Assembly (NCBI RefSeq): GCF_030345095.1
Contig: NZ_CP128360.1
Span: 4,278,001-4,342,000 of the forward strand
Direction: 5' to 3'
Source: Solwaraspora sp. WMMA2056
GTDB lineage: Bacteria; Actinomycetota; Actinomycetes; Mycobacteriales; Micromonosporaceae
DNA: 64,000 nucleotides
The position numbers were made by a program, and so were the translations under genes. Under the pieces are notes generated by a model, which saw only the letters and a list, made by a program, of their open reading frames with translations, ran no database searches and was not told the DNA's origin. Position 1 is the stretch's first letter, and every line of letters starts with the position of its first letter. This document shows, piece after piece, positions 7,045-28,895 of the stretch.

Positions 7045-7062
7045 CTTCCGACTGGGCGGTAG
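7045..7062 (-). promoter_or_regulatory. Degenerate copy of the island operator upstream of the TetR gene
   Basis: CTTCCGACTGGGCGGTAG matches 11 of the 14 fixed positions of the operator reverse complement ATTCCGACC-N4-GGTAT. It lies just before a plausible -10 TAGGAT (7060-7065) and 44 bases before the TetR start codon, where an autoregulatory site would be expected. It is weaker than the other copies, so confidence is modest. Confidence 0.4.
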
Positions 7063-7105
7063 GATTTCGTGGGCGCTGAGGAGAAGCCGGAAGCGGAGGC
7101 CACAG

Positions 7106-7741
7106 ATGGCTCGTGCGATATCCAACCGCCCGGGGGCGGCCCGACGCCGGCAGCGCTGGGCGGACGGCTACGACCCGGAGAACACCCGCAAGTCGTTGAT
7201 CGCCAGCGCGTTGGAGCTGTTCGAGCGTCGTGGGTTCGACCGGACGTCGGTGCAGGAGATCGCCGACCAGGCCGGGCTTACGAAAGGTGCTTTCTACCAT
7301 CACTTCGAGAGCAAGGACGACCTGCTGCGGCACATCCAGGAGGAGTACCTGGAGGCGCAGCTGTCCGCGATCCAGCAGATCGAGTCGGACAACGACGACC
7401 CGAAGGCGCGGGTGGCGGAGCTCATCCGGTTCAGCCTGACCAGCGTGGCCGAGTACCGCGCCCACGTGACGATCTTCTATCAGGAACGACGGTATCTCGC
7501 CGGCGACATGTTCGCCGAGGTCAGCCGTAAGCGTGACCTGGTGGAAGCAGCCTTCGCGGCGATGATCCAGGACGGCATCGCCCGTGGGGTCTTCCGTACG
7601 GACGTGGACGCGCGGATCGTCACCTTCGGTCTCGTGGGGATGTGCGCCTGGGCGTACCAGTGGCTCAACGTCGACGGCCCGCTCAGCATCGACGAAGTCG
7701 CGCGCCAGTTCAGCGTGATGGTGCTCGACGGTCTCTGCTGA
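7106..7741 (+). CDS. TetR/AcrR family transcriptional regulator
   Basis: 211 residues. An N-terminal TetR DNA-binding domain lies at about 28-75, with the typical segment TSVQEIADQAGLTKGAFYHH (recognition helix) followed by FESKDDLL. The C-terminal ligand-binding domain is all-helical. The ATG at 7106 was chosen because an SD-like GCGGAGG lies about 6 bases upstream and the HTH then sits at the usual distance from the N-terminus; a longer upstream reading frame exists but has no SD. It heads the catabolic island and lies convergent to the acyl-CoA dehydrogenase gene. It is the best candidate for the protein that binds the 18-bp operator repeated through the island. Its ligand is probably a pathway acyl-CoA, by analogy with FadR/KstR-type TetR proteins (inference). 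Confidence 0.88.
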   Translation: MARAISNRPGAARRRQRWADGYDPENTRKSLIASALELFERRGFDRTSVQEIADQAGLTKGAFYHHFESKDDLLRHIQEEYLEAQLSAIQQIESDNDDPKARVAELIRFSLTSVAEYRAHVTIFYQERRYLAGDMFAEVSRKRDLVEAAFAAMIQDGIARGVFRTDVDARIVTFGLVGMCAWAYQWLNVDGPLSIDEVARQFSVMVLDGLC

Positions 7742-7756
7742 GTCGGTCCGGGGCGG

Positions 7757-8905
7757 TTAGCCGGCCAGCAGCGTGCGGGCCATCACGATGCGTTGCACCT
7801 GGTTGGTGCCCTCGTAGATCTGGGTGATCTTCGCGTCGCGCATCATCCGTTCCACCGGGAAGTCGCGGGTGTAGCCGTAGCCACCGAGCAGCTGGACCGC
7901 GTCGGTGGTGATCTTCATGGCTGCGTCGGAGGCGAAGCACTTCGCGGCCGCGCCGAAGTAGGTGAGATCCGGCTCGTCGCGTTCGGACTTGCCGGCTGCC
8001 ACGTACGTCAGCTGTCGAGCGGCCTCCAGAGTCATACCCATGTCGGCGAGGATGAACTGGACGCCCTGGAAGTCGGCGATCGATCGGCCGAACTGCTGGC
8101 GCTGTCGGACGTATCCAAGTGCATGGTCGAGGGCGCCCTGGGCGATACCCAGCGCCTGGGCGGCGATGGTGACGCGGGTGTGGTCCAGGGTCCGCATCGC
8201 CGTCGCGAAGCCCGTTCCCGGTGCGCCGATGATCCGGTGGTCCGGGATGCGGACGTTGTCGAGGTACACCTCGCGGGTCGGGGATCCCTTGATGCCGAGC
8301 TTCCTCTCCGGTGCGCCGAAACTGACGCCCGGATCGGATCGCTCCACCACGAACGCGGAGATCCCGCGTGCGCGGGCCGTCGGGTCGGTGACGGCGAAGA
8401 CCGTGTAGTACTCGCTCAGCCCGGCGTTGGTGATCCAGCGCTTGACTCCGTTGAGCACCCAGGTGTCGCCGTCGCGTTCGGCGCGGGTCCGCATGCCGGC
8501 CGCGTCGCTGCCGGCGTCCGGCTCGGACAGGCAGTAGGAGAACATCGCCTCGCCGCGGGCCACCGGCGGAAGGTACCGCTGTTTGAGGTGCTCGTCGGCG
8601 GCGAGCAGCAGCGGCATGGTGCCGAGCTTGTTGCCGGCCGGGATCAGCGAGGAGGTGGCGCACGCCCGGGCGACCTCTTCGATGACGATCGCGGTGGCGA
8701 GGGCGTCCGCACCGGCCCCGCCGTACCGGACCGGGACGTGCGGGGCGTGGAAGTCGGCCGCCCGTAACGCGTCGTAGGAGGCCCCGGGAAACTCGGCCGT
8801 CTCGTCGGCGACGGCTGCGTGCGGGGCGACCTTGTCGTCGCACACCGCGCGTACGGCGTCCCGTACGGTCTTGTGCTCCTCGGGCAGCTGGTAGGCCTCG
8901 AACAC
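7757..8905 (-). CDS. Acyl-CoA dehydrogenase
   Basis: FAD-dependent alpha,beta-dehydrogenation of an acyl-CoA; 382 residues, normal for a short/medium-chain ACAD. Visible motifs: FSYCLSEPDAGSDA (flavin/substrate contact), WITNAGLSEYY, GGYGYTRDFP, and IYEGTNQ with the presumed catalytic base Glu365. The GTG at 8905 was chosen because GAGGAGG lies 6-7 bases upstream and the protein then begins at the first ACAD helix; the open frame runs much further upstream without support. Leu47 is encoded by the rare TTA codon. It is transcribed divergently from the MaoC gene, with an operator copy between them. Confidence 0.9.
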   Translation of the reverse strand: MFEAYQLPEEHKTVRDAVRAVCDDKVAPHAAVADETAEFPGASYDALRAADFHAPHVPVRYGGAGADALATAIVIEEVARACATSSLIPAGNKLGTMPLLLAADEHLKQRYLPPVARGEAMFSYCLSEPDAGSDAAGMRTRAERDGDTWVLNGVKRWITNAGLSEYYTVFAVTDPTARARGISAFVVERSDPGVSFGAPERKLGIKGSPTREVYLDNVRIPDHRIIGAPGTGFATAMRTLDHTRVTIAAQALGIAQGALDHALGYVRQRQQFGRSIADFQGVQFILADMGMTLEAARQLTYVAAGKSERDEPDLTYFGAAAKCFASDAAMKITTDAVQLLGGYGYTRDFPVERMMRDAKITQIYEGTNQVQRIVMARTLLAG

Positions 8906-8940
8906 CTGCGACCTCCTCGTCCGGCATCGTGGCAGCAAGA

Positions 8941-8958
8941 ATACCATCCGGTCGGAAT
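8941..8958 (+). promoter_or_regulatory. Island operator between ACAD and MaoC genes
   Basis: ATACCATCCGGTCGGAAT fits ATACC-N4-GGTCGGAAT exactly at all fixed positions. It lies in the 153-base divergent space between the ACAD start (8905) and the MaoC start (9059), suitable for repressing both. Confidence 0.7.
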
Positions 8959-9058: not shown

Positions 9059-9550
9059 GTGCGAACCGCGTCGCGTACGACCGTAGGTGTCCCGAGCGAT
9101 CTGCTTGACCTCGTCGGTAGAGAACTGGGGGTCAGCGAACCGCAGGTGGTGACCCAACCACAGATCGACCAGTTCGCGGAGGTCACCGGGGACCATCAGT
9201 GGATCCATGTCGACGTCGAGCGGGCGCGGTCCGGGCCGTTCGGGACGACGATCGTGCACGGTTTCCTGACGCTGGCGCTCGTGCCACGCCTGCTCGCGGA
9301 CATCCTCGAGGTGCGGACCTTCTCGATGGGGGTCAACTACGGCCTCGACCGCGTCCGTTTCGTCACACCGTTGCCACCCGGCGTACCGGTCCAAGGGGTC
9401 GCGACACTGGTGTCCGCCCGGGCGATCGACGCCGTACCCGGTGCCGGTGCCGGTGCCGGCGTGCAGGCCAAGGCGTCGGTGGCGGTCGAGTTCGCGGACG
9501 GGTCGACACCCTGCTGCGTGGCGGAGATCCTGTTCCGGTACTACGCCTGA
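9059..9550 (+). CDS. MaoC-like (R)-enoyl-CoA hydratase
   Basis: Single hot-dog fold hydratase of 163 residues. It has the hydratase-2 signature GDHQWIHVDVERA with catalytic Asp45 and His50, followed by GPFGTTIVHGFLTLAL, typical of PhaJ/MaoC proteins. It would add water to a 2-enoyl-CoA. The GTG at 9059 has GAGGAG about 10 bases upstream and gives a normal N-terminus. It is divergent from the ACAD, so the pair supplies two consecutive beta-oxidation steps under one operator. Convergent with the flavin reductase gene, 14 bases apart. Confidence 0.88.
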   Translation: MRTASRTTVGVPSDLLDLVGRELGVSEPQVVTQPQIDQFAEVTGDHQWIHVDVERARSGPFGTTIVHGFLTLALVPRLLADILEVRTFSMGVNYGLDRVRFVTPLPPGVPVQGVATLVSARAIDAVPGAGAGAGVQAKASVAVEFADGSTPCCVAEILFRYYA

Positions 9551-9564
9551 GCCGCGTCGACGGC

Positions 9565-10080
9565 TCACTCGGTCGTGGCGCTCGACGGGTTGACGAACTG
9601 GCCCCGGTAGAACGACAACGCCGGTACGTTCGTCGGCTTCAGGTGCACGTGGTCGACATCGAGCAGGATGATCACGTGATCGCCGCTGGTGATCACGTGG
9701 TCGCGGCGGCCGGCGAGGATCGCCGGTGTGCCGGTCAGCACCGGGACACCGTCCGGACCGGGTGCCCAGGAGACCCCGGCGAGTTTCTCGGTGCCGGTGA
9801 GTCCCGAGGTGGCGAACCGGCGCGCCACGTCCTCCTGGTCACGGCTGAGGATGTGGATGGCGATCCGTTCGGCGGCCACGAGGGTCGCGAAGCTGGACGA
9901 GGAGCTGGTGACGCAGAACAGCACCTTCGCGGGCTGGAGCGATACCGAGGTGAACGAGTTGACGGTCAGCGCGGCCACGTTGCCCTGCGCGGTAACGGCG
10001 GTGACGGCGGTGACGCCGGTGGGGAAGTGCCCGCACACCTGGCGGAACTGGGTGGAGTCGAACAAGGGCTCGGCCGTCAC
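9565..10080 (-). CDS. Flavin reductase (NADH:FMN oxidoreductase) domain protein
   Basis: 171 residues from GTG 10080. The flavin-reductase-like fold is shown by FDSTQFRQVCGHFPTGVTAV, the flavin-binding stretch NSFTSVSLQPAKVLFC, and a C-terminal DHVIILLDVDHV/FYRGQF segment. Such proteins reduce FMN or FAD for a separate monooxygenase. The start chosen lies 4 bases after the VOC stop; a start at 10158 would overlap that gene by 74 bases and add a low-complexity tail. It is the only obvious flavin reductase in the catabolic island, which has four luciferase-like monooxygenases, so it is a good candidate electron donor for them (inference). Confidence 0.82.
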   Translation of the reverse strand: MTAEPLFDSTQFRQVCGHFPTGVTAVTAVTAQGNVAALTVNSFTSVSLQPAKVLFCVTSSSSSFATLVAAERIAIHILSRDQEDVARRFATSGLTGTEKLAGVSWAPGPDGVPVLTGTPAILAGRRDHVITSGDHVIILLDVDHVHLKPTNVPALSFYRGQFVNPSSATTE

Positions 10081-10084
10081 CGGG

Positions 10085-10894
10085 TCACCGCCTGGGGGAG
10101 GAGTCGTGCCCGGGGCGAAGTCCGCCGTCGAGCTGGATGAGGCAGAGCGTGTGACCACCGGGATCCTTCACCAGGTGCAGCGGTCCGTACGGGCTGTCGA
10201 CCGGGCCGACGGTCGGCGTCCCGCCGAGCGCGCAGACCTGGGTCAGCGCCTGGGGAAGGCAGGCCACGGCGAAGTAGGTGATCCATTTCGCCGGGATCAG
10301 ATTCGGCCATTCGTTGTCGAGGGCGAGGACGCCGGCGACCGCGACGTCGTCGAGCATCAGCAGGGTGTACGGCCGGGAGGTCGGCGTGTCGCCGGTGCGG
10401 CGGGTGGCGTAGCCGAACAGGGACCGGTAGTAGGTCACCGACTCGGCGGGCTCCCCGGTGTCCAGCTCGTTCCAGCACAGTGCGCCGACCGAGTTGAGCA
10501 TCTGGACGCCGGAGCGTGACTCGCCCTGGTAGAGGCCGAACGCGGCGCCGAACGGATCGATGACCACGGCGCCCGTACCGGCGGCCGGCAGGTAACGCGG
10601 ACGGGTGACGAGCTCGCCGCCGAGCGCGACCGCCCGGGCGGCGGAGTGGCTGACGTCGTCGACCGCGAAGTAGACGATCCAGCCCCGGGGGCGACCGCCG
10701 TGCAGGGCGGCGGCGTTCGAGATGCCGGCCACGTCGCGCCCGTCGATGCCGCACATCCGGTACGTGGTGGCCCCGAGCCGTTCGGAGCGGACCGTCCAGC
10801 CCAGCAGTGCGCGGTAGAAGGGTTCGACCTTGTCCGGATCGGGGGTGGACAACTCCACCCAGACGGCCTCGCCGGGCCGGAATCGCCTGTTCAT
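10085..10894 (-). CDS. Two-domain VOC (glyoxalase/dioxygenase-fold) protein
   Basis: 269 residues containing two vicinal-oxygen-chelate modules: about 8-130 (VWVELSTPDPDKVEPFYRALLGW ... VIDPFGAAFGLYQG, shown here in part) and about 140-262 (CWNELDTGEPAESVTYYRSLFGY ... DPGGHTLCLIQ). The spacing and tandem organisation resemble the mycobacterial CFP30B-like proteins. Function of that family is not settled. The start ATG overlaps the crotonase stop (ATGA), so the two genes are translationally coupled and controlled from the 11.6-kb divergent promoter. Confidence 0.8.
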   Translation of the reverse strand: MNRRFRPGEAVWVELSTPDPDKVEPFYRALLGWTVRSERLGATTYRMCGIDGRDVAGISNAAALHGGRPRGWIVYFAVDDVSHSAARAVALGGELVTRPRYLPAAGTGAVVIDPFGAAFGLYQGESRSGVQMLNSVGALCWNELDTGEPAESVTYYRSLFGYATRRTGDTPTSRPYTLLMLDDVAVAGVLALDNEWPNLIPAKWITYFAVACLPQALTQVCALGGTPTVGPVDSPYGPLHLVKDPGGHTLCLIQLDGGLRPGHDSSPRR

Positions 10895-11628
10895 CCGGAC
10901 GCTCCTCGGGTGGTGACGCTGGCGACGATGCTGTGGGCCGAGACGTCGTAGGCATGATCGGGAGCGCCGGTGGCCAAACTGGACTCGACGACCTCGACCA
11001 CCGCCCGTAGCGTGCGGCCGGGTACGGCGAGCAGCGACTCGACCAGGGCCTCGACCGCACGGTCGAGGCCGTCGTCGGCGACGACTCCGGCGACCAGTCC
11101 CCAGGCGAGGAGTTGGTCGGCCGTCGCCGTGGCGACTCCGGTCAGCAGGTGGTAGGCCAGTGAACGAGGGAGCACCTGGGCGATGGTGTGGCCGACGCCA
11201 GCGGGGGCGAAACCGTAGCGGGCCTCGGGCAGCGACAGGCTGGCGCTGGCGGCGGCGATCGGCAGGTGCACGGCGTCGAGCAGGCCGGCGCCGAAGCCGA
11301 TCACGCGTCCCCGTACCGGGGCGACGACCGGCACCGGAAGCCGCCGGATCCGCCGTAACGCGGCGTCACTGGCGCGCAGGCCGTCGGCGACCGCCTCGGG
11401 CGACCTGTCGGCCAGTCCGGCGAACGCCGAGGTGTCCCAGCCGCCGCAGAAGTGCCGTCCGGCCATCTCGAGGTGGACGACCGTGCAGGCGTCGTCGGCC
11501 GCGGCGGCCTCCAGCGCGCGGACGAGTTCGCCCAGCGTCGCGTCGTCGAGGCAGTTGCCGCGGGCCGCGTTGTCGTAACGCACCTGGATGAGGCGTCCGT
11601 TGTGTCGTGGCGTGAGGGTGAGGTCCAC
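10891..11628 (-). CDS. Enoyl-CoA hydratase/isomerase (crotonase) family protein
   Basis: About 245 residues of crotonase fold. The oxyanion-hole segment RHFCGGWDTSAF and the second loop VIGFGAGLLDAVHLPIA are visible. Of the two classical hydratase glutamates, the first (Glu144 of rat hydratase) is replaced by Leu, while the second is kept in LPEARYG, so isomerase, hydrolase or lyase activity is as likely as hydration. The GTG at 11628 was chosen because a -10 (TATGAT) ends 7 bases before it, predicting a leaderless mRNA; an in-frame ATG at 11640 overlaps that -10. Leu91 uses a TTA codon. First gene of a three-gene operon with the VOC and flavin reductase genes. Confidence 0.8.
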   Translation of the reverse strand: MDLTLTPRHNGRLIQVRYDNAARGNCLDDATLGELVRALEAAAADDACTVVHLEMAGRHFCGGWDTSAFAGLADRSPEAVADGLRASDAALRRIRRLPVPVVAPVRGRVIGFGAGLLDAVHLPIAAASASLSLPEARYGFAPAGVGHTIAQVLPRSLAYHLLTGVATATADQLLAWGLVAGVVADDGLDRAVEALVESLLAVPGRTLRAVVEVVESSLATGAPDHAYDVSAHSIVASVTTRGASG

Positions 11629-11635
11629 CCGGCCG

Positions 11636-11664
11636 ATCATACATACCGGTCGGTATGAAAACAA
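11636..11664 (-). promoter_or_regulatory. Crotonase promoter with operator in the spacer
   Basis: On the minus strand: -35 TTGTTT (11659-11664), 17-base spacer, -10 TATGAT (11636-11641), then 7 bases to the GTG at 11628. The spacer holds the perfect inverted repeat CATACCGGTCGGTATG (11642-11657; 7-bp arms, central GT), a compact variant of the island operator. Binding there would block RNA polymerase. Confidence 0.65.
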
Positions 11665-11725: not shown

Positions 11726-11754
11726 TTGACTTGATACCGGCTGGTCGGTACTTT
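11726..11754 (+). promoter_or_regulatory. ABC importer promoter with operator in the spacer
   Basis: -35 TTGACT (11726-11731), 17-base spacer, -10 TACTTT (11749-11754). The operator copy ATACCGGCTGGTCGGTAC occupies 11734-11751, filling the spacer. This mirrors the divergent crotonase promoter 80 bases away and predicts repression of the importer operon by the same regulator. Confidence 0.68.
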
Positions 11755-11820: not shown

Positions 11821-13344
11821 ATGATCATGAAATCCCCGCTCCTGCGGCGGTCCCTCGTGGCGGCCGCCACCATCACCGTCGCAAGCGTCAGCCTCACCGC
11901 CTGCGGTGGCACTGATTCCACCGAGACCGGACAATCCGGCCCGACTGTCATCCGCGCGCTGCTCGCGGCCCAGCCAGCCACCCTCGACCCGATCGTCGGG
12001 GCACGCTCCGCCCAGATCGTCTGGGCCACGATGCTCGAACCGTTGATCGACACCGACTCCGCCCTCGCCCCGACCGACACCGGCCTCATCACCGACTGGG
12101 CCCGTACCGACGCGACGACCTGGACGTTCACGGTCCGCCCCGACATCAGCTTCAGCAACGGCGAAAAGGCCGACGCCGCCGCGGTCGCGAACACCATCAC
12201 CCTCACCCGTGACACCGAGGCGTCGCCGCTGAAGTCCTACTTCAGCAACGTCACCTCCATCGAGGCCACCGACGACACGACCGTCGTGCTCACCACCGGG
12301 ACGCCGCAGTACAACATTCCCGATCTGCTCACCACGGTCTACCTGGTGCCGCCGGCCTACTACCAGGAGCAGGGATCCGAGGGCTTCGCCGCGGCGCCGG
12401 TCGGCACCGGGCCGTACGTGTGGGCCGGCGCCAACGCGGGTCGCGACATCTCGGTCACCACGAACTCCGACTACTGGGGCGAGGCGCCGGCGAACGGCGG
12501 CATCACCTTCACCTGGGCCAACGAAGCCGCGCAACGTCTTGCGTTGATCCAGAGCAACAGCGTCGACATCGCCTTCGACCTCCCACCGGCTCAGGCGCAG
12601 ACAGCCGAGGCGGCCGGCGTCGAGGTGGTCAGCACCGAGACCGCGATGAAGATCATCGCCTTCCTCGACTCGACCAAGGAACCGTTCGACGACCCGCAGT
12701 TGCGCGAGGCCGCCGCCCTGGCCATCGACCGCGACGCGATCGTCAGCGGCATCTTCGACGGCCAGGCCGCCGCCGATGCGGGCCTGCTCAACGTCCGGCC
12801 CGGCCAGCAGCCGCAGGACAGTGTCACCGCCGATCCGGCGAGGGCCGAACAACTCGTCGGGGACGCGACCCCGGCCGTGCAGATCACCTACCCGGCGGCG
12901 CAGTACACCAACATCGAAGAGGTCGCCCAGGCCGTCGGCGGCAGCCTCGAACAGGCCGGCTTCGCCGTTTCCTACGAGCCGCTGGACTACGGAACGTTGG
13001 TCCAACGGATCATCGGACGTCAGGTTCCCGGTATCGCCATCTTCGCCGGGGTTCCCAACGTCGCGGTGCCGGACTACTTCGTCAGCGGATTCATGAAGAC
13101 CGCGTCGCTGACCGGCAACTGTCCCGACCCACAGATCGACCAACTCGCCCAGCAGGCCCTCGAACAGGACAGCGCCGAACAGGCCGCTCCCATCTACGAG
13201 CAGCTCAACACCATCGGAGTGGTCGAAAAGCACTGCTATGTCCCCCTCTACCGGCAGATCTTCAACTACGCGACCGGTCCCGGTGTCACCGGCGTCGAGT
13301 TCGGTCCGCTGAACACCGTGGACTTCACGAAGACGACCCGCTGA
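11821..13344 (+). CDS. ABC transporter substrate-binding lipoprotein (SBP_bac_5 family)
   Basis: 507 residues; peptide/nickel/opine-type solute-binding protein. It has an N-terminal lipoprotein signal: MKSPLLRRS, hydrophobic core, then lipobox LTAC with the acylated Cys before GGTDST. Family-typical elements are TLDPIVGARSAQ near the mature N-terminus, the RPDISFSNG motif and AAPVGTGPYVW. It would capture substrate outside the membrane for the importer encoded by the next four genes. The ATG at 11821 was chosen for the AAGGAC SD 6 bases upstream; ATG 11827 is equally compatible with the signal peptide. Substrate unknown; its place in the operon suggests the compound degraded by the island rather than ordinary peptides. 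Confidence 0.9.
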   Translation: MIMKSPLLRRSLVAAATITVASVSLTACGGTDSTETGQSGPTVIRALLAAQPATLDPIVGARSAQIVWATMLEPLIDTDSALAPTDTGLITDWARTDATTWTFTVRPDISFSNGEKADAAAVANTITLTRDTEASPLKSYFSNVTSIEATDDTTVVLTTGTPQYNIPDLLTTVYLVPPAYYQEQGSEGFAAAPVGTGPYVWAGANAGRDISVTTNSDYWGEAPANGGITFTWANEAAQRLALIQSNSVDIAFDLPPAQAQTAEAAGVEVVSTETAMKIIAFLDSTKEPFDDPQLREAAALAIDRDAIVSGIFDGQAAADAGLLNVRPGQQPQDSVTADPARAEQLVGDATPAVQITYPAAQYTNIEEVAQAVGGSLEQAGFAVSYEPLDYGTLVQRIIGRQVPGIAIFAGVPNVAVPDYFVSGFMKTASLTGNCPDPQIDQLAQQALEQDSAEQAAPIYEQLNTIGVVEKHCYVPLYRQIFNYATGPGVTGVEFGPLNTVDFTKTTR

Positions 13345-13346
13345 CG

Positions 13347-14186
13347 ATGGCCGAGGTAGTGCAGGCGGGGGTGCCGGGTGACCGGCACTCCCGCACCCCG
13401 GACACCGACACCGCCGTACTGGTGGTCGACGACCTGGTGGTCGAACACCGCGACCGCCGCACGGGGACGGCCCTGCGCGCCGTCGACGGTGTGTCGTTGC
13501 GGATCGGCGCGGGCGAGAGCGTCGCCGTCGTCGGCGAGTCGGGATCCGGCAAGACGACCCTCGCGATGGCGGCGACCGGGCTGGGCGCCCGTGGCGTCGG
13601 GACCATCAGACTCCTCGGGCACGAACTCTCCTCGACCGGTCGGGCGCAGCTGCGGCGGCTGCGACCCGAGGTGCAGGTGGTGTTCCAGGATCCGCACGGG
13701 TCGCTCGACCCCCGGCAGTCGGTGCGCTCCGGGCTACGGGAACTCCGCGGGCTGCAACCGGCGCGCACCTCCTGGATCAGCGACACCGACCTGCTCGACC
13801 GGGTCCGGCTCGCGCCGCAGATCCTGGACCGCTTCCCGCACCAGCTCTCCGGTGGCCAGGCCCAGCGGGTCTGCATCGCACGGGCGCTACTCATGCGGCC
13901 ACGGCTGATCGTCGCCGACGAGCCGACCTCCGGTCTCGACGTCTCGGTGCAGGCCGACGTGCTGGAGCTGCTGACCGAGATCCGCCGCAGCACCGGCGCG
14001 GCACTGTTGATGATCAGCCACGATCTCGCCGTCGTCCGGTCCGTCTGCGATCTTGTGCACGTCATGTGCCACGGCCGTGTCGTCGAGTCCGGGCCCTGCG
14101 AGAAGGTCTTCGTCACCCCGGAGCACGACTACACGCGCGAACTGCTCGCCGCGATGCCCGGCGCGCGCTGGAGGTCCCGCCGATGA
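13347..14186 (+). CDS. ABC importer ATPase (DppD/OppF type)
   Basis: 279 residues with Walker A GESGSGKTT, Q-loop VVFQDPHGSLDPRQ, signature LSGGQAQR, Walker B LIVADEPTSGLDVS and switch His in MISHDLAVV. This is the oligopeptide/nickel importer ATPase subfamily. Its ATG lies two bases after the binding-protein stop, and its end overlaps the permease start by ATGA. It pairs with the second ATPase at 15996 to drive the heterodimeric permease. Confidence 0.92.
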   Translation: MAEVVQAGVPGDRHSRTPDTDTAVLVVDDLVVEHRDRRTGTALRAVDGVSLRIGAGESVAVVGESGSGKTTLAMAATGLGARGVGTIRLLGHELSSTGRAQLRRLRPEVQVVFQDPHGSLDPRQSVRSGLRELRGLQPARTSWISDTDLLDRVRLAPQILDRFPHQLSGGQAQRVCIARALLMRPRLIVADEPTSGLDVSVQADVLELLTEIRRSTGAALLMISHDLAVVRSVCDLVHVMCHGRVVESGPCEKVFVTPEHDYTRELLAAMPGARWRSRR

Positions 14187-15106
14187 AGACCACCACGGTA
14201 CGGCGCGTCGGCAGCCGGCTCGCGTCACTGCTCGCCTCGCTGCTCATCGCGCTCAGCCTGGCCTTCGCACTCGGCCGGCTCTCCGGCGATCCGACCGTTG
14301 CCATTCTCGGCCCGATGGCCACCCCGGAGCAGCGTGACGCACTGCGCCACGAACTCGGTCTCGACCTGCCGCTGGCCGTGCAGTACCTCGACTACCTCAA
14401 GGGCATCCTCACCGGTGACCTCGGTCAGTCGCTGCAGTTCTATCAGGCAAACACCACGCTGATCGCCGACCGGTTGCCGTTCACCCTGCAACTGGTCGCC
14501 GCCGGGATGGCGCTCGCCGTACTCGTCGGCGTGCCGCTCGGAGTGCTGGCCGCGACCCGGGAGGGCACCTGGTGGGACCGCGCCGCGTCGACCCTCGCCC
14601 TGCTCGGCCAGTCGGTGCCCGTCTTCTGGTTCGGCATGATGCTGGTGGCGCTGTTCGCCGTCAACCTTGGCTGGTTGCCCGCCGGCCAGTCCGGCACCGC
14701 ACGACATCTGATCCTGCCCGCCGTCACCATGTCGGTGTACCCGATGGCGCAGATCGCCCGGCTCACCCGGGCGTCGATGGCTGAGGCGCTGGCCGAGCCG
14801 TACATCGACTCCGCCCGGGCCCGAGGACTGCGCGGGCGACAGGTCGTCTGGCGGCACGCGTTCAAGAACGCAATGATGCCGATCCTGACCATCGTCGTAC
14901 TGCAGACCGGCATCCTGCTCTCCGGCGCGGTCGCGATCGAGTACGTCTACTCCTGGCCAGGTCTCGGTCAGCTCGCGCTGCAGGCCATCCAGTTCCGTGA
15001 CTTTCCGCTCGTCCAGGCGATCGTCGTCTTCGGTGCCCTGACGTTCGTCCTGCTGAACCTGGTCGTCGACGTGATCCATTCCGCGGTCGACCCGAGGGTG
15101 AGGTGA
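14183..15106 (+). CDS. ABC importer permease (DppB type)
   Basis: 307 residues, about six membrane helices, the first at about 12-30. DppB features: GLDLPLAVQYLDYLKGILTGDLG near the N-terminus, and the EAA loop SARARGLRGRQVVWRHAFKN that contacts the ATPase. Start ATG overlaps the ATPase stop. Forms the membrane channel with the following permease. Confidence 0.92.
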   Translation: MKTTTVRRVGSRLASLLASLLIALSLAFALGRLSGDPTVAILGPMATPEQRDALRHELGLDLPLAVQYLDYLKGILTGDLGQSLQFYQANTTLIADRLPFTLQLVAAGMALAVLVGVPLGVLAATREGTWWDRAASTLALLGQSVPVFWFGMMLVALFAVNLGWLPAGQSGTARHLILPAVTMSVYPMAQIARLTRASMAEALAEPYIDSARARGLRGRQVVWRHAFKNAMMPILTIVVLQTGILLSGAVAIEYVYSWPGLGQLALQAIQFRDFPLVQAIVVFGALTFVLLNLVVDVIHSAVDPRVR

Positions 15107-16787: not shown

Positions 16788-16801
16788 AGGAGAACCGCGA
16801 C

Positions 16802-20315: not shown

Positions 20316-20338
20316 GCCGCGTCAAGAAGGGAGCCACC

Positions 20339-22356: not shown

Positions 22357-23957
22357 GTACGGCGAACGTCGCCGCGATGCTGGCCGGCAACGCCCGGCGT
22401 TTCGCCGACGCCGACGCGCTGGTCTTCGAGGGCCGGCGGTGGACCCACCGCCAGCTCGCCGCCGACGTCGAGGCCCTGGCCGCAGGTCTGACGGCCGAGG
22501 GGATCCGCCGCGACGCCCGGGTGGCGATCATCTCGAACAACGTGCCCGAGTTCCTGCTGTTGTCGCTGGCGTTGTCGAAGCTCGGTGCGGTCTTCGTGCC
22601 ACTGAACTACCGGCTCACCGCGGGGGAGCTGGCCCAGTTGCTGCGGCACGCGCGGGTCCAGGCGGTCGCGACGGTCCCGGAGTTCGCCGCGTTGACCGAC
22701 GCGGCGTTGACCGACGCGGCGTTGACCGACGCGGCGTTGACCGACGCCGGATCGAGTGAGCCCGTGGCCGACGTGCGCCGGTTCGCGCTGGAGCCGATCG
22801 ACGACGACGGCTGGGTAGACGTGCGCGCGCTGATCTGGACCCACCGGGGTGCCCGGGTCGCCGACGCCGATCTCGACGAGGCGGCCCTGCACCGGATCGT
22901 CTACACCTCCGGTACGACCGGGCTGCCCAAGGGAGTGCTGCTCACCCACGGCAACGTGAACATGAACATGCACGCCCAGATCGTCGAGCTCGGGCTGCGG
23001 CCGAGCGACCGGATCCTCAACTTCGCACCGCTGTACCACGTCGGCGGCACCGACCTGCCGGGCTTCGGCATCTGGCATGTCGGCGGCACGATGGTGCTGC
23101 ACCGGCGGTTCGAACCGGCGGCGGTGCTGCGGACGATCGAGACCGAGCGGATCACCGGCATGGTGATGGCGGCGACGATGCTCGACATGGTCCGCCGCGC
23201 GGTCGACGTCGCCGCCGCCGATCTGACCTCGGTGCGGTGGGTCATCTATTCACAGGTCACGTCGGCGTTGTTCGCCGTGGCGCGGGAGCTCTTCCCGGAC
23301 GCCCGGCTGATCGAGGGCTACGGTCTCACCGAGACGTGCAGCGCCCTGACGTACCTGGACGAGGCGCACATGCGGTCCAAGCAGGGGTCGGTCGGCCTGC
23401 CCGTGCCGTGGGTCCAGGTACGGGTGGTCGACGCGGACGGCAACGACGTGCTGGTCGGCGACGACGGGGAGGTGATCGCACGCGGCCCGAAGGTGAGCCC
23501 CGGCTACCTCGACGATCCGCAGGCGACCCGGGCGGCCTGGCGCGACGGGTGGTTCCACACCGGCGACATCGGTCGCTTCGACGCCGACGGCTACCTGTAC
23601 ATCCGGGACCGGCTCAAGGACATGATCCGCAGCGGTGGGGAGAACATGTCCAGCGCCGAGATCGAGAACGTGCTGGCCGACCACCCGCTGGTGCTGGCCG
23701 CGTCGGTGGTGGCGGCACCGCATCCGGTGTGGCTGGAGGTCCCGGTGGCGTTCGTGATCGGCCGGCCCGGCCTGGAGCCCGAGTCGCTGATCGCACATGC
23801 CCGGCAGCGACTCGGCGGCTTCAAGGTCCCGAAGGAGATCTACGTCGTGGACGAGTTTCCGACGAATCCGTCCGGCAAGGTGCTGAAGCGCAGCCTGCGG
23901 GAGCTGCGGTCGTCGGCGCGCCCGGACTGGACGTATGACCGGCTGCGACGCGACTGA
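22353..23957 (+). CDS. Acyl-CoA ligase with internal tandem repeat
   Basis: 534 residues; same fold as the previous ligase, with VYTSGTTGLPKGVL, YHVGGTDLPGFG, GYGLTETCSALTY, WFHTGDIGRFDADGYLY and SGKVLKR. It differs by an insertion near residues 113-132 in which ALTDA is repeated four times, encoded by four 15-bp units. The repeat sits in a surface segment before the ATP loop and keeps frame, so the enzyme is likely intact. ATGA overlap with the upstream ligase; tail-to-tail with the metallo-beta-lactamase gene only 3 bases away. Confidence 0.9.
   Translation: MSTANVAAMLAGNARRFADADALVFEGRRWTHRQLAADVEALAAGLTAEGIRRDARVAIISNNVPEFLLLSLALSKLGAVFVPLNYRLTAGELAQLLRHARVQAVATVPEFAALTDAALTDAALTDAALTDAGSSEPVADVRRFALEPIDDDGWVDVRALIWTHRGARVADADLDEAALHRIVYTSGTTGLPKGVLLTHGNVNMNMHAQIVELGLRPSDRILNFAPLYHVGGTDLPGFGIWHVGGTMVLHRRFEPAAVLRTIETERITGMVMAATMLDMVRRAVDVAAADLTSVRWVIYSQVTSALFAVARELFPDARLIEGYGLTETCSALTYLDEAHMRSKQGSVGLPVPWVQVRVVDADGNDVLVGDDGEVIARGPKVSPGYLDDPQATRAAWRDGWFHTGDIGRFDADGYLYIRDRLKDMIRSGGENMSSAEIENVLADHPLVLAASVVAAPHPVWLEVPVAFVIGRPGLEPESLIAHARQRLGGFKVPKEIYVVDEFPTNPSGKVLKRSLRELRSSARPDWTYDRLRRD
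22689..22748 (+). repeat. 4 x 15-bp tandem repeat inside a ligase gene
   Basis: Unit GCGTTGACCGACGCG, repeated four times head to tail; only the last base of the final copy differs (C). It encodes ALTDA each time. Near-identity of all copies indicates recent slippage-type expansion. Confidence 0.95.
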
Positions 23958-23960: not shown

Positions 23961-24947
23961 CTACCGGTGGACGCCCGCCGTGTGCCGCAGCAGGGCCTGG
24001 GCATGGACGAGGGAGAACCGTTGGGTACCGCGGCCGAGTTCGTCCCAGGGTCTGCGCCACTGCATCCGCCGGGCGACGTCCCAGGCGGTGACCCGCCCGT
24101 CGGTCGCCAGAGCGTCGACGGTGGCGACCTCGGCACGGTGGAAGGCGGCCAGTTCGTCGGCGCGGGCCGCGACGTCGCGGTACGGGAACTGGTGGGCCGG
24201 GCAGGCAATCGTCGCGCCGAGGTCGCGGATGCCTTCCAGCGTCCGGAACAGGTCCGCCGCCGGGTCGTCGTCGGCGCGGCTGACGATCGCGAGCTGGGTG
24301 GGGCCCTCGGGCATCATCGTGTCGCCGGTGAAGACCAGGCCGCGGGTGTCGACGTAGACCGTGTGCCCGTAGGTGTGGCCCGGGGCCGGTACGGCGCGGA
24401 TGGTCACGTCGCCGAACCGCAACTCGGTCTCGTCGGCCACGGCCAGGTCGATCCGCAGGTCCTCGTGGTGCGCGGTGACCGCGACCGCGTCGGCGTACAT
24501 CGTCTCGACGACGTCGGGCGGGGCACCGGTCGCCGTGAGGGCGGTGCGCAGCTGGGTGAGGAAGCCACCCCTGCTCCGGCGCATGGTGGCGAAGTCGTCG
24601 GCCTGCCCCATGACCAGCCGGGCACCGGACCGGTCCCGGACCCGGGCGGCGAAGCCGATGTGGTCCGGGTGGTTGTGGGTGAGCAGGACGGTGGAGATCG
24701 TCTCGACCCGGCGGCCGATCGCGGCGACCGATCCGGTGAACGACTCCCAGCAGCTCGGGTGGTCGTAGCCGGCGTCGATGAGGACCGCGCCGTCGCCGGT
24801 GTCGACCAGGAAGACGGTGACGTAGCGCAGTGCGCTGCCGCGCAGCGGGACCGGGATCGCCCAGATCCCGTCGGTGACCTCGGTCGGGTCCGGGACCTGA
24901 CGGGCGTGATAGCTGGCGGCGTGCGCGTCGTTCACAGGTCTGGACAT
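23961..24947 (-). CDS. Metallo-beta-lactamase fold hydrolase
   Basis: 328 residues; metal motif THNHPDH (His91, His93, Asp95, His96), further ligands in PAPGHTYGHTVY and FTGDTMM, and a C-terminal CPAHQFPYRD segment. It hydrolyses an ester, thioester or lactone, probably with two zinc ions. ATG 24947 has GGGAGG about 9 bases upstream. Divergent from a ligase gene across an operator. In this setting a thioesterase or lactonase acting after a Baeyer-Villiger-type oxygenation would fit, but that is inference. Confidence 0.85.
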   Translation of the reverse strand: MSRPVNDAHAASYHARQVPDPTEVTDGIWAIPVPLRGSALRYVTVFLVDTGDGAVLIDAGYDHPSCWESFTGSVAAIGRRVETISTVLLTHNHPDHIGFAARVRDRSGARLVMGQADDFATMRRSRGGFLTQLRTALTATGAPPDVVETMYADAVAVTAHHEDLRIDLAVADETELRFGDVTIRAVPAPGHTYGHTVYVDTRGLVFTGDTMMPEGPTQLAIVSRADDDPAADLFRTLEGIRDLGATIACPAHQFPYRDVAARADELAAFHRAEVATVDALATDGRVTAWDVARRMQWRRPWDELGRGTQRFSLVHAQALLRHTAGVHR

Positions 24948-25008
24948 CGTCAGACGCCTCCCTTACTGTGGAAACAACAACATACCGGATGGTCGGAATT
25001 TAACTCAA
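24941..25008. promoter_or_regulatory. Divergent promoters and operator between hydrolase and ligase genes
   Basis: The operator ATACCGGATGGTCGGAAT is at 24982-24999. Rightward promoter: TGGACA (24941-24946), 17-base spacer, TACTGT (24964-24969), which puts the operator just after the start point. Leftward promoter: TTGAGT (complement of 25003-25008), 18-base spacer, TATGTT (complement of 24979-24984), with the operator inside the spacer. One bound protein could block both. Confidence 0.62.
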
Positions 25009-25016: not shown

Positions 25017-26564
25017 ATGAGCGACGAGCGGACCGGCTTCCGGCTCTGGGCGGCCGCCGAGCCGGACCTGTGCGCGATCGTGACTGCCGACGATCGGCAG
25101 ATCTCCTACGGCGAGCTGTACGCCGAGGTGAACCGGATCTCGCACGGCCTGCGTACCCGCGCGGGCCTGCGTGCCGGCGACACGGTCGCGGCGGTGATGA
25201 CCAACAGCGCCGGCATGGTCGCGCTCTACCTGGCGGCGATGCAGTCGGGGCTCTACCTGGTGACGCTCAACTACCACCTGACCGAGCCGGAGATCGCCTA
25301 CATCCTCGCCGACAGCGGTGCCAAGGTCGTCGTCTGCTCCGCGCGGGTGGAGCCGGTCGTCGCCGCGGCCGCCGCCGGCGTACCCGGGATCCAGGTGTAC
25401 GTCGACGGAGTCCCGACCACCGGTCGCGTCCGTCCGTTGTCGCGGCTCACCGACGGCATGTCGACGGTGAGCCCGGAGCAGACCCCGGCCGGTTCGCTGA
25501 TGATGTACACCTCGGGCACCACCGGCCGCCCGAAAGGGGTGAAGCGGCCGCTGGCCGGCGTCGACGCCGACACCGGCGCGTCGACCTACCGGTGGCTGTT
25601 CCAGGAGTTCGGGATGGAACGTCCCGCCTTCGGGTCCTGGCTCGTCTCGGCTCCGCTGTACCACTCCGCGAACATCACCCCCGCGATGGGTGCCCTGCAC
25701 GCCGGCGGAACTATGGTCCTGATGGACGGCTGGACGCCGGAGGGTTTCCTGCGTCGGGTCCACGACCGGCGGGTCACCGGCACCAGCATGGTGCCGACCC
25801 ACTTCTACCGGCTGCTGCAACTGCCCCAACAGGTTCGCGACAGCTACGACGTCTCCTCGCTGCGCTACGTCCTGCACGGCGCCGCGCCGTGCCCGCGTGA
25901 GGTCAAGCAGCGCATCCTCGACTGGTTCGGCCCGGTGGTCTACGAGTACTACGGCTCGACCGAGGTCGGTACCACCATCGCCCGCCCGCACGAGTGGCTC
26001 GCCCACCCGGGAACGGTCGGTCGCCCCGCGTCCATCTCGACGCTGCGGATCCTCGACGAGGCCGGCAACGAGGTGCCGGTCGGCCAGACCGGCATCGTGT
26101 ACATGCGTCAGGGCTCCGACCAGGTCGAGTACCACAACGACCCCGGCAAGACCGACGGCGCGCGTCGCGACGGCCTGATGACCGTCTGGGACGTCGGCCA
26201 CGTCGACGCCGACGGCTTCCTGTACATCACCGGCCGGGCCGCCGAACTGATCCTGGTCGGTGGGGTCAACGTCTACCCGGCCGAGATCGAGGCCGCGTTG
26301 CTCGGCCACGACTGGATCGCCGACGCCGGAGTCGTCGGCGTACCCGATCCGGAGTTCGGCGAGGTGCCGCAGGCCCACGTCGTGCTGACCGAGACCGCGC
26401 CCGACGCCGAAGCAGCGCTCGCGCAGATCCGTACCCATCTCGCCGGACGGCTGGCGAAGCCGAAGCGTCCGCATTCGTACGTCGTCCGCGAGGCGCTGCC
26501 CCGCGACCCCAACGGCAAGCTCTACAAGGCGCGGCTCACCCGTGCCCCGGAGGTGTCGGCGTGA
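25017..26564 (+). CDS. Acyl-CoA ligase
   Basis: 515 residues of the adenylate-forming family: MMYTSGTTGRPKGVK, YHSANITPAMG, YEYYGSTEVGTT, VWDVGHVDADGFLYITGR, and C-terminal PNGKLYK with catalytic Lys. AAGGAG lies 4 bases before ATG 25017, a strong SD. The start and preceding operator define it as first gene of the operon with the paired acyl-CoA dehydrogenases. Substrate not predictable; the sequence resembles long- or bulky-chain ligases used in steroid/terpenoid catabolism. Confidence 0.9.
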   Translation: MSDERTGFRLWAAAEPDLCAIVTADDRQISYGELYAEVNRISHGLRTRAGLRAGDTVAAVMTNSAGMVALYLAAMQSGLYLVTLNYHLTEPEIAYILADSGAKVVVCSARVEPVVAAAAAGVPGIQVYVDGVPTTGRVRPLSRLTDGMSTVSPEQTPAGSLMMYTSGTTGRPKGVKRPLAGVDADTGASTYRWLFQEFGMERPAFGSWLVSAPLYHSANITPAMGALHAGGTMVLMDGWTPEGFLRRVHDRRVTGTSMVPTHFYRLLQLPQQVRDSYDVSSLRYVLHGAAPCPREVKQRILDWFGPVVYEYYGSTEVGTTIARPHEWLAHPGTVGRPASISTLRILDEAGNEVPVGQTGIVYMRQGSDQVEYHNDPGKTDGARRDGLMTVWDVGHVDADGFLYITGRAAELILVGGVNVYPAEIEAALLGHDWIADAGVVGVPDPEFGEVPQAHVVLTETAPDAEAALAQIRTHLAGRLAKPKRPHSYVVREALPRDPNGKLYKARLTRAPEVSA

Positions 26565-26603
26565 CCGCGACCCGTGAGGTGCCCGAAGACAGGGGAGCCC
26601 GGC

Positions 26604-27755
26604 GTGGACTTCGATGACAGCGACAGCGACCTCGCGTTCCGGCGTGCGGCCGGCAGCTGGCTCGACCAGGCGCTGCGCGACGTGCCTGATCAGGAGGAGC
26701 TGTCCCAGACCGAGCGTGAGCACTGGTCACGGGTGTGGCAGGAGCGGCTCTGCGCCGGCAACTGGGCCGGGTTGTCCTGGCCGGTCGAGCACGGCGGCCG
26801 CGGGATGGACTCGTTGGCGCAGGCGATCTTCAACGAGGAGGCCGCGGTCCGGGGCGCGCCGTACCCGCTCAACGGGGTCGGCATGATGCTGGCCGGTCCG
26901 ACGATCATCGCGCACGGCAGCGACGAGCAGCAGGCCCGGTACCTGCCGGGCATCCTGCGCGGCGAGGAGTACTGGTGCCAGGGCTTCAGCGAGCCCGGCT
27001 CCGGCTCCGACCTGGCGAGTCTGCGGACGGCCGCGACCCGGGTCGACGGCGGCTGGCTGATCAACGGCACCAAGATCTGGACCTCCAACGCGCACAACGC
27101 CTCCCGGTGTCTGTTGCTGGCGCGGACCGACCCCGAGGTGGCCCGGCACCGGGGCATCACCTACTTCCTGGCTCCGATGGACCGGTTCACCGTCCGACCA
27201 CTGGTGATGATCAATGGGGACACCGAGTTCAACGAGATGTTCCTCGACGACGTGTTCGTCCCCGACTCCGACGTGCTCGGCGGGCTCGGCAACGGCTGGA
27301 AGGTCGCGCTCACCACGCTCGCCTTCGAACGCGGCAGCATGGCGCTGAACCTGTGGGTGTGGGCCCGCCAGGCAGTGGACCGGGTCGTCGATCTGGCGAT
27401 CGCGCGGGGCCTGGCCGACGACAGCGCCTTCGTCGACACGGTCGGCGCGTTGCAGTGCGATGCCGAGGCGGTCCGGATCGGGTCGATGCGGATGCTGGCG
27501 GAGAGTCGCGCCGGCGGCGTCCCCGGCCCGGAGACATCGGCGTTGAAGAGCCTGTGGGCCGGCGTGGTCCAGAACGCGAACCGGCTCGCGGTGCAGCTCG
27601 ACGAGGCCGGCGGGGTGCTTCTCGACGGCGCCGGGGCCGCCGCCCGGATGCACCGCTACCTGCGTGCCCGCGCCCACACGATCGAGGGCGGCACGGAGGA
27701 AGTCCAGAAGTCGATCCTCGCGGAGCGGGTGCTTGACCTGCCCCGTTCACGTTGA
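26604..27755 (+). CDS. Acyl-CoA dehydrogenase (catalytic-type subunit of a pair)
   Basis: 383 residues. FAD-binding QGFSEPGSGSDLAS and IWTSNAHNA, and a C-terminal TIEGGTEEVQKSIL in which Glu361 is a candidate base. GTG 26604 was taken because AGGGGAG lies about 7 bases upstream. It resembles the FadE subunits that work as alpha2beta2 pairs (for example the mycobacterial ChsE enzymes). The next gene encodes a shorter ACAD, 13 bases away, supporting a heteromer. Confidence 0.85.
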   Translation: MDFDDSDSDLAFRRAAGSWLDQALRDVPDQEELSQTEREHWSRVWQERLCAGNWAGLSWPVEHGGRGMDSLAQAIFNEEAAVRGAPYPLNGVGMMLAGPTIIAHGSDEQQARYLPGILRGEEYWCQGFSEPGSGSDLASLRTAATRVDGGWLINGTKIWTSNAHNASRCLLLARTDPEVARHRGITYFLAPMDRFTVRPLVMINGDTEFNEMFLDDVFVPDSDVLGGLGNGWKVALTTLAFERGSMALNLWVWARQAVDRVVDLAIARGLADDSAFVDTVGALQCDAEAVRIGSMRMLAESRAGGVPGPETSALKSLWAGVVQNANRLAVQLDEAGGVLLDGAGAAARMHRYLRARAHTIEGGTEEVQKSILAERVLDLPRSR

Positions 27756-27768
27756 ACGGAGTGGCCGC

Positions 27769-28830
27769 GTGCACGCGACATTCACCCAGGAGCAGCAGGA
27801 GATCGGCGAAACCGTCGCGGCCCTCGCCAAGGCGCAGGCCGGCGCGGCGCGCGCCGCGCTGTCGACAGGTTGGCGGCCCTGCGCCGCCGACGGGCCGCTG
27901 CTGCGCGACTTCGGGCTGCTCGGCGTGCCCGAGTCGGTCGGCGGGGTCGGGTCGGCTCTGATCGACCTGCTCGTCGCCGTGGAGGTGCTCGGCGAGTACC
28001 TGGTCCCGAGCCGGTTCGCGGCCCACGCGGGCGCCGTACAGCTGCTCTGCGGCGCAGACGGGCGGACCGCGTCGTTGCCCGACGAGGTCCTCGACGGCCG
28101 CCGGGTGCTCACGTCGGCGGTCGACGTGCCGTCCACGGCCGGCTGGCCGGACCGGTCGGTGCCGGATCCGCTGGTGCGGACCCTGGTGCCGTACGCCGCC
28201 CAGGCGGACGGGTTCGTCGTCGCCGGTCCCGACGGGACCTGGGTCGCCGATGCTGCCGCGCTCGCCGAGCAGGCTCGGGTCACCGAACGGCGGTCGTTCG
28301 ACCCGTCGGTGCCGCTGTCGGACGTGTCGCTGTCCGCACCGCAGCGGGTCGACCCGGTCGGCACCGGGTTGTGGCGGGCGACGCTGGTGGTCGCCGCCGA
28401 ATTGTGCGGCGTCGCGCAGGGCGCGATCGGGTTGGCCGCCGAGCAGGCCCGTACCCGGGTGCAGTTCGGCCGGGTGATCGGGTCGTTCCAGGGGGTCGCG
28501 TTCCAGCTGGCCGAGGCCGCCACCGCGCGCAAGGCGGCGTGGGATCTGACGCTCTACGCGGCCTGGGCCGTCGACAACCGTCGACCGGACGCCGGGAGCC
28601 AGGTGCACGCCGCCAAGGCGGCGGCGGGAAAGGCCGCGGTCTTCGCCGCTGAGCGGGCCATCCAGGTGTACGGCGGGATGGGCATCACCATGGAGGCGGA
28701 TCCGCATCTGTTCCTGCGTCGGGCGTTGGTGCTCGACGCCCGCGCCGGCCGTGGCCGGTGGCACCGTCACCGGGCCGGCACGCTTCGGATCGAGGCGCGC
28801 CGGACGGGCCCGGGACAACCCACGTACTAA
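27769..28830 (+). CDS. Acyl-CoA dehydrogenase (second subunit of a pair)
   Basis: 353 residues; ACAD fold with FTQEQQEIGETVAAL start, ARTRVQFGRVIGSFQGVAFQ, and VYGGMGITMEADPHLFLRRA at the end. The central FAD-interacting strand motifs are degenerate and the C-terminal EGTxE-type motif is absent, as expected for the non-catalytic-looking partner of a heteromeric ACAD. GTG 27769 has GGAG 7 bases upstream. Last gene before a new promoter. Confidence 0.83.
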   Translation: MHATFTQEQQEIGETVAALAKAQAGAARAALSTGWRPCAADGPLLRDFGLLGVPESVGGVGSALIDLLVAVEVLGEYLVPSRFAAHAGAVQLLCGADGRTASLPDEVLDGRRVLTSAVDVPSTAGWPDRSVPDPLVRTLVPYAAQADGFVVAGPDGTWVADAAALAEQARVTERRSFDPSVPLSDVSLSAPQRVDPVGTGLWRATLVVAAELCGVAQGAIGLAAEQARTRVQFGRVIGSFQGVAFQLAEAATARKAAWDLTLYAAWAVDNRRPDAGSQVHAAKAAAGKAAVFAAERAIQVYGGMGITMEADPHLFLRRALVLDARAGRGRWHRHRAGTLRIEARRTGPGQPTY

Positions 28831-28850
28831 TGCGCTGACCTGCGCAGACC

Positions 28851-28895
28851 TTGCAGTGCCAGCAACGCGGCGGTAACATACCGGCTGGTCGGAAT
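28851..28895 (+). promoter_or_regulatory. Promoter and operator of the LLM-ligase operon
   Basis: -35 TTGCAG (28851-28856), 17-base spacer, -10 TAACAT (28874-28879). The operator ATACCGGCTGGTCGGAAT covers 28878-28895, overlapping the -10 and the expected start site. AGGAG (28901-28905) then serves the GTG at 28911. Confidence 0.68.

Follow-up and report, generated by a model that had tools for sequence, protein, structure and literature searches.

A catabolic island in Solwaraspora sp. WMMA2056 carries six copies of an 18-bp imperfect palindrome, all within a 64,000-bp stretch (C1:4278001-4342000; hereafter, the window) of its 7,010,427-bp single-contig genome. By sequence comparison, these six sites are very probably operators of the adjacent TetR-family protein (7106-7741), which would repress the island as one unit. 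In support, perfect copies of the operator are confined to the island genome-wide, related islands keep the sites at operon heads, and the TetR gene, the island and the operators stay linked across taxa.

Each site joins a strong arm, TWCCGACY, to a weak arm, GGTAK. Read from the strong arm, all six copies (O1 to O6) share TWCCGAC, with TTCC replacing TACC in four of the six, and they match 13-16 of the 18 positions of the ideal palindrome ATACCGACCGGTCGGTAT. All six motif copies named in a preliminary description of this DNA were present on rescan. The compact palindrome that it listed at 11642-11657 also exists, but it coincides with O3 (11639-11656), which contains all but one of its bases, and adds no further site.

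We determined the specificity of the motif at several stringencies. The pattern ATACCN4GGTCGGAAT occurs without mismatch at 8941, 24982 and 28878, with two mismatches at 11639 and 11734, and with three at 7045 (minus strand). Up to three mismatches yielded nine matches in the window against 2.4 expected, a number reached in one of 100 shuffles; the 11639/11643 palindrome, found on both strands and in two registers, accounts for three of these, and one, at 55127, falls outside the island. A whole-genome scan with the derived pattern TWCCGACYNNNNGGTAK returned exactly five perfect matches (7045, 8941, 11734, 24982 and 28878), all in the island. The many island-unrelated matches that, according to the preliminary description, would speak against a regulon were thus not seen among perfect copies, and its statement that no site lies outside the island holds genome-wide at zero mismatches. 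At one mismatch, 24 further genome matches appear (O3 among them); the reversed pattern, as a control, gave 19 genome matches at zero to one mismatch. Because the pattern was derived from the sites themselves, we ran a leave-one-out test in the window, in which the left-out sites at 8941, 11639, 11734, 24982 and 28878 each scored above all non-sites.

The features of the island are as follows; functions are predicted, and operator sequences are aligned from the strong arm.

7045..7062, plus strand: operator O1, CTTCCGACTGGGCGGTAG, a weak copy located 43 bp upstream of the start codon of TetR (putative autoregulation)
7106..7741, plus strand: TetR-family repressor, 211 aa, with TetR_N and TetR_C_24 domains and the recognition helix LTKGAFYHHF
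7757..8905, minus strand: acyl-CoA dehydrogenase (ACAD1)
8941..8958, minus strand: operator O2, ATTCCGACCGGATGGTAT, in the promoter region between the divergent ACAD1 and MaoC genes
9059..9550, plus strand: MaoC-like hydratase
9565..10158, minus strand: flavin reductase
10085..10894, minus strand: VOC/glyoxalase-like protein
10891..11640, minus strand: ECH1, of the enoyl-CoA hydratase/isomerase family; start codon uncertain, GTG 11628 possible
11639..11656, minus strand: operator O3, ATACCGACCGGTATGTAT, in the ECH1 promoter, between TTGTTT (11659-11664) and TATGAT (11636-11641), 17 bp apart
11734..11751, minus strand: operator O4, GTACCGACCAGCCGGTAT, in the spacer of the solute-binding protein (SBP) promoter: TTGACT (11726-11731), 17 bp, TACTTT (11749-11754)
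11821..13344, plus strand: ABC transporter SBP, SBP_bac_5 (Dpp/Opp type; domain scan on 11731-13344)
13341..16787, plus strand: two ATPases and two permeases, the remainder of the Dpp/Opp-type ABC transporter
16778..18214, plus strand: HMG-CoA-synthase-like protein that includes a ChsH2-type OB-fold and zinc-ribbon region; its Pfam matches fall slightly under cut-offs
18229..19398, plus strand: thiolase, PRK06157 family (domain scan on 18130-19398)
19395..20833, plus strand: short-chain dehydrogenase (SDR) and a VOC-family protein
20833..23957, plus strand: FadD1 and FadD2, two AMP-forming acyl-CoA ligases
23961..24947, minus strand: metallo-beta-lactamase-fold protein (MBL)
24982..24999, minus strand: operator O5, ATTCCGACCATCCGGTAT, in the promoter region between the divergent MBL and FadD3 genes
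25017..28830, plus strand: FadD3 acyl-CoA ligase and two acyl-CoA dehydrogenases (ACAD2, ACAD3)
28878..28895, minus strand: operator O6, ATTCCGACCAGCCGGTAT, before LLM1, overlapping the -10-like TAACAT (28874-28879; TTGCAG at 28851-28856, 17-bp spacer)
28911..35648, plus strand: LLM1, LLM2, FadD4, LLM4 (32676-33674), ECH2 and LLM3, a single operon by gene order
35645..35980, plus strand: VOC-family protein, the final gene of the LLM1 operon by gene order

The LLM1 operon thus encodes four luciferase-like monooxygenases (LLM), one CoA ligase (FadD4) and one crotonase-fold enzyme. We infer that the flavin reductase supplies reductant to two-component monooxygenases. Each unit of the island is headed by an operator, with two divergent pairs sharing one apiece. 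The sites lie in promoter regions, before transcription units, and as far as gene order shows they cover every such unit between 7 and 36 kb, both as previously proposed; a PaaX-like gene that starts after about 36.0 kb has no site. The top non-site matrix match of the window (14.1) is ACACCGACAAGCCGGTGT at 18902-18919, inside the thiolase gene; similar matches occur in loci L057, L058, L065 and L160, and these matches probably reflect coding constraint.

To assess conservation, we scanned a genome collection for LLM1 and obtained 24 loci, of which 20 encode LLM1 at 56% identity or more. A score of at least 18 with the window-derived matrix, within 150 bp upstream of a gene, was counted as a site, and the duplicate loci L069/L109, L070/L106 and L067/L107 were merged, so that counts refer to distinct places. 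Sites precede LLM1 in 18 of 19 distinct places, FadD3 at all 16 loci, MBL in 15 of 16, ACAD1 in 4 of 4 and MaoC in 8 of 10 distinct places. By contrast, the internal genes FadD1, FadD2, FadD4, ACAD2, ACAD3, ECH2, LLM2, LLM3, SDR and VOC2 had sites in 0 of 173 places, with a top score of 10.4. One ECH1 entry, in L098 (score 0.5), was set aside, being a weak 35% match and not the true ECH1. Relatives with operators at operon heads include Actinomadura, Thermomonospora, Nocardioides, Microbacterium and some metagenome-assembled genomes (MAGs). The sites before MaoC, ECH1 and SBP recur in Nocardioides marmoriginsengisoli (L155), Microbacterium (L156) and Actinomadura (L157), and their counterpart loci L059, L063 and L056 likewise retain the FadD3 and LLM1 sites. 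Within the Micromonosporaceae, relatives include Micromonospora wenchangensis (L055, G598) and Dactylosporangium aurantiacum (L068, G611), and an O1 equivalent stands before TetR in 11 of 11 loci (L039-L049); the orphan locus L050 has no site there.

An alignment of 17 LLM1 promoters retains the block TAACATACCGnCTGGTCGGAAT against a mean column identity of 54%; the block is not kept in an Acidimicrobiia MAG and carries small changes in a few other sequences. Across 15 hand-chosen non-Micromonosporaceae loci (13 genomes, 293,906 bp; L070, L071-L074, L157 and short TetR loci left out), we counted 31 matches of at least 18, whereas 200 column-permuted matrices averaged 0.33, and at most 7, on the same loci. 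As a separate observation, five of the six named Micromonospora genomes (G594-G598, not G608) and G003 carry two operators about 56 bp apart before ACAD1/MaoC (4033-4106 in L160), where the window has one.

The preliminary description had picked the local TetR protein as the simplest candidate regulator, and comparison across genomes supports this choice at the level of sequence. In 200 Micromonosporaceae genomes (window genome included), an orthologue at an E-value cut-off of 1e-40 occurs in 13, and at least five perfect sites are present in 12 of these 13 genomes versus 1 of the 187 without it (table counts by eye); Fisher's test gives p = 2.8e-17 for this co-occurrence, which is not a true probability as the genomes are related. 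Each of the 20 genomes whose LLM1 reaches 56% identity encodes a TetR orthologue (41-86% identity), and 19 of the 20 have a perfect site on the contig of the orthologue (the exception is G609). In the four genomes with a more distant LLM1, by contrast, three had no TetR match at E 1e-20 and one had a 29% match. A site of at least 14 lies within 1.5 kb of TetR at 17 of 20 orthologue loci versus 1 of 10 paralogue loci of the same genomes.

This linkage withstands changes in gene order. In the Nocardioides, Actinomadura and Microbacterium islands, TetR stands directly behind MaoC and beside the flavin reductase, so that the MaoC operator may control TetR there. TetR lies beside LLM1 in L069 (a MAG labelled proteobacterium) and beside the ABC transporter in L067 (an Acidimicrobiia MAG). 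In these two loci and in L070 (a Patulibacter MAG), TetR is 39-49% identical to the window protein, next to differing island genes, and a site of at least 19 lies within 250 bp of the TetR gene. The system is rare in our phylum sample, as a search of its 396 genomes at E 1e-35 recovered TetR from three: the window genome, G003 (same family) and G322. In G322 the protein is 36% identical and its helix reads TKGALYHYF; a match of 15.8 precedes its gene, and a perfect palindrome lies 4.7 kb away. By this comparison, TetR, island and operators form one unit.

The protein itself is a member of the TetR family (PF00440, 69.7 bits; PF17932, 103.3 bits), and its predicted model (pLDDT 80.6, from four sequences) matches TetR folds, the closest being KstR2, a Thermobifida TetR and PfmR, with AibR bound to isovaleryl-CoA and FadR bound to stearoyl-CoA lower in rank. 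Across 21 orthologues the recognition helix is nearly constant and 24 residues are invariant, including T59, K60, G61, A62, Y64 and H66 of the recognition helix region. Among named TetR regulators in NCBIfam, 25 families matched and none scored above its cut-off, the best being a ScbR type at 71 versus 150. Putative palindromic operators are present both in the promoters of the presumed target genes and before the regulator's own gene, where the copy is weak and restricted to the Micromonosporaceae.

Several observations weigh against assigning the sites to this protein or against parts of that assignment. The LLM1 site is degenerate (14.8) in the Acidimicrobiia MAG L067, no site lies within 150 bp of MBL in L060, the MaoC site is missing in L097 and L099, and the orthologue loci L097, L099 and L108 have no site of at least 14 within 1.5 kb. 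In the leave-one-out test O1 (7045) ranked only ninth, below the non-sites at 18902 and 56728, and is weak by itself; O1 therefore rests on its conservation. Of 20 distinct places, only seven have a site of at least 18 directly before TetR; these all belong to Micromonosporaceae, and none was found at 13 distinct loci outside the family, indicating that autoregulation of this form is not general. G075 encodes an orphan TetR orthologue, 72-74% identical and with the same helix, yet the 20 kb read (L154, G075:C37:160000-179999) contains no island gene and no site of at least 15, and the rest of that genome a single perfect match; the protein can thus occur in the absence of the regulon. An automatic promoter scan of 6900-12000 returned no sigma-70-type match at its threshold, and the promoter hexamers thus rest on reading by eye and on conservation. 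Lastly, 14 other TetR loci of the window genome include two with weak matches, L076 (the nearest paralogue, 14.5) and L087 (16.7), and TetR genes of about 30% identity lie near similar palindromes elsewhere, at 34 bp in G039 and G080 and within 2 kb in G027, G042 and G150. The latter suggest an operator code common to a broader TetR group; its specificity in this genome may stem from the lack of a second protein that uses it. Palindromes of the TACCGACCGGTCGGTAT type were noted near such TetR genes, about 30% identical, at L121, L124, L129, L138, L144 and L150 (G039, G027, G150). On one contig of G150, four pattern matches fall within 21 kb and may mark a regulon of their own.

In one alternative, the sites belong to a TetR paralogue encoded at some other locus, and the local protein is a passenger. 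Counting the local protein, 28 TetR-like matches occur in the genome, the related TetRs of G039 and G080 sit close to near-identical palindromes, and the nearest paralogue has its own weak upstream match. Yet the two nearest paralogues (L076 and L077) are 31-32% identical and carry LSGSLYHHF in place of TKGAFYHHF, and even where the island is rearranged the local TetR accompanies it, preceded by a site in Micromonosporaceae or, in most of the other actinobacterial islands read, with the site ahead of the MaoC gene that immediately precedes it. We consider another paralogue an unlikely owner of the sites, and regulation by the local TetR remains our preferred explanation.

The positions of the sites suggest how the local TetR could act. 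In the SBP promoter the operator lies inside the 17-bp spacer between TTGACT and TACTTT, a layout kept in the Actinomadura locus L157; in Nocardioides L155 the second hexamer is TACGTT. O3 is framed by TTGTTT and TATGAT of the ECH1 promoter, again 17 bp apart, and is kept before ECH1 in L155, L156 and L157. If this -10 assignment is right, the ECH1 start codon lies at or after GTG 11628. O3 also reaches the region of possible ECH1 start codons (11636-11657), so ECH1 may have a very short leader or start downstream of its open reading frame (ORF) start. In the LLM1 promoter, O6 covers part of the -10-like TAACAT.

This last overlap, together with the conservation of the combined -10/operator block, would fit conserved promoter elements of a special sigma factor instead of repressor operators. 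The repeats, however, are palindromes that face either way with respect to the gene, shift in position relative to the hexamers (in the spacer at SBP and ECH1, over the -10 at LLM1) and agree in form with characterised TetR operators, which makes a sigma-factor explanation very improbable. Still less probable is control of the island through these sites by the PaaX-like regulator encoded at about 36-37 kb. PaaX proteins regulate aerobic CoA-dependent catabolism, and this gene adjoins the island; but it lacks a site of its own, a PaaX relative was found in only two (L049 and L065) of 37 loci, many of them too short to reveal one, and in L160 from the genome of L049, and no PaaX was found in the stretches read from the site-keeping Nocardioides, Actinomadura and Microbacterium islands. 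A chance resemblance within GC-rich DNA, to which the loose three-mismatch window count (only moderately above shuffles) and the weak TetR-promoter copy might point, has next to no plausibility, as zero-mismatch genome matches are confined to the island and distant taxa keep the sites at operon heads only.

We infer binding and repression by TetR at the sites from these sequence relationships and propose the following mechanism. When substrate is absent, a TetR homodimer would occupy the 18-bp imperfect palindromes, filling the -35/-10 spacer at SBP and ECH1 or covering the -10 at LLM1 and so blocking RNA polymerase; it would also repress its own promoter, weakly. Substrate would be imported and then converted to a CoA thioester by an island ligase, and the thioester would bind the C-terminal domain of TetR and release the repressor. 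Expression of the transporter, the ligases and acyl-CoA dehydrogenases, the hydratases and thiolase, the flavin reductase and the four luciferase-like monooxygenases would then start jointly. By analogy, the inducer is probably a CoA thioester of the pathway, because the fold relatives AibR and FadR bind isovaleryl-CoA and stearoyl-CoA and because of the precedent of MbdR.

The operator type is already known: its core and geometry are those of the PaaR/MbdR/PfmR type (ACCGACCGGTCGGT or ATACN10GTAT). PaaR (BCAL0210) of Burkholderia cenocepacia has the inverted repeat ACCGACCGGTCGGT between a putative -10 and -35, a genome matrix search was reported as pathway-specific, and a lower-scoring copy lies at the BCAL0211 operon that holds the regulator gene (PMC2770484). 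Both systems pair a TetR repressor of CoA-dependent catabolic genes with the same palindrome core, placed between -10 and -35, whereas they differ in host phylum and in targets (phenylacetate for PaaR), and the island sites are 18 bp long with unequal arms. A scan with the PaaR core at three or fewer mismatches was unspecific (38 window matches versus 14.8 in shuffles). The Pfam matches of the scanned island proteins include no phenylacetyl-CoA epoxidase family, so the target genes are not those expected of a PaaR orthologue. The Thermus protein named PaaR (TTHA0973) has an unrelated operator, with the consensus AACnAACGTTnGTT (PMC6651687).

MbdR of Azoarcus sp. CIB is described as binding ATACN10GTAT at operators that overlap the -10, +1 or -35 and as being induced by 3-methylbenzoyl-CoA (PMC4424350). 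It is likewise a catabolic repressor with an 18-bp operator of the same outer geometry, ATWC...GTAT, and its CoA-thioester inducer serves as a model here; unlike the island, it serves an anaerobic aromatic pathway, and it is a distant match to the local TetR (4uds, E 1.1e-8). The exact ATACN10GTAT occurs in this genome only at O3. PfmR (TTHB023) of Thermus thermophilus has pseudopalindromic operators, including one upstream of its own gene, and acts in fatty-acid and related CoA metabolism (PMC7022988). Its structure (PDB 3vpr) is among the nearest solved ones (28-30% identity, TM-score 0.76-0.80 by query); its regulon is dispersed over several loci, unlike that of the island TetR, and its helix is LSKAALYHHF versus LTKGAFYHHF. 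The top fold match is KstR2 (PDB 4w97 and 4w1u; 27% identity). KstR2 is an actinobacterial TetR repressor of a CoA-dependent catabolic cluster, and its operator differs from the island operator. Its family neighbour 2ibd (RHA5900) carries LSGSLYHHF, as do the paralogues L076 and L077 of this genome, versus LTKGAFYHHF here. The system would work like PaaR, MbdR and PfmR, and its regulatory principle is familiar. Of the earlier proposal that the regulon is undescribed, this much stands: in an open-access literature search covering the regulon, the island and the operator type, neither the island nor its target pathway turned up, whereas close variants of the operator are known from those three regulators.

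Two neighbouring regions flank the island. Directly upstream, 97-5334 encodes a 1745-aa fusion of biotin carboxylase, biotin carrier and carboxyltransferase, resembling an acyl-CoA carboxylase, with no TWCCGACYNNNNGGTAK match nearby in the genome scan at zero to one mismatch. Further downstream, at 47198-56392 (minus strand), lies a 3064-aa hybrid polyketide synthase-nonribosomal peptide synthetase ORF with class-III aminotransferase and luciferase-like monooxygenase domains, adjoined by a major facilitator superfamily transporter gene (56365-57825); together they are likely a natural-product cluster next to the island.

The controlled pathway is the least known part of the system. Its gene set comprises four luciferase-like monooxygenases, four CoA ligases and a Dpp/Opp-type transporter, and the LLM1-operon set is also present in Actinomadura, Thermomonospora, Nocardioides and Microbacterium. 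PDB and NCBIfam matches of LLM1, LLM3, ECH2, FadD3 and others are too distant to name a substrate, and a literature search for links to marine SAR202-type monooxygenases gave nothing useful. Cyclic terpenoids or polyketide-like ketones, with type II Baeyer-Villiger chemistry, are leads for the substrate rather than results. There is about an even chance that the TetR orthologous group and its operators mark a portable, undescribed oxidative pathway, including the step of the HMG-CoA-synthase-like protein and thiolase and Dpp/Opp-type uptake, which is patchy in Actinomycetota and in MAGs labelled otherwise, keeps its switch where gene order is not kept, and is induced by a novel, pathway-specific acyl-CoA.

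Taken together, a set of unnamed catabolic genes becomes one defined regulon, with six putative operators and one candidate repressor. As several repressors of this type are released by a CoA thioester of their pathway, the operator-TetR pair could be used as a sensor in the search for the substrate of this pathway, which is shared by several actinobacterial groups.

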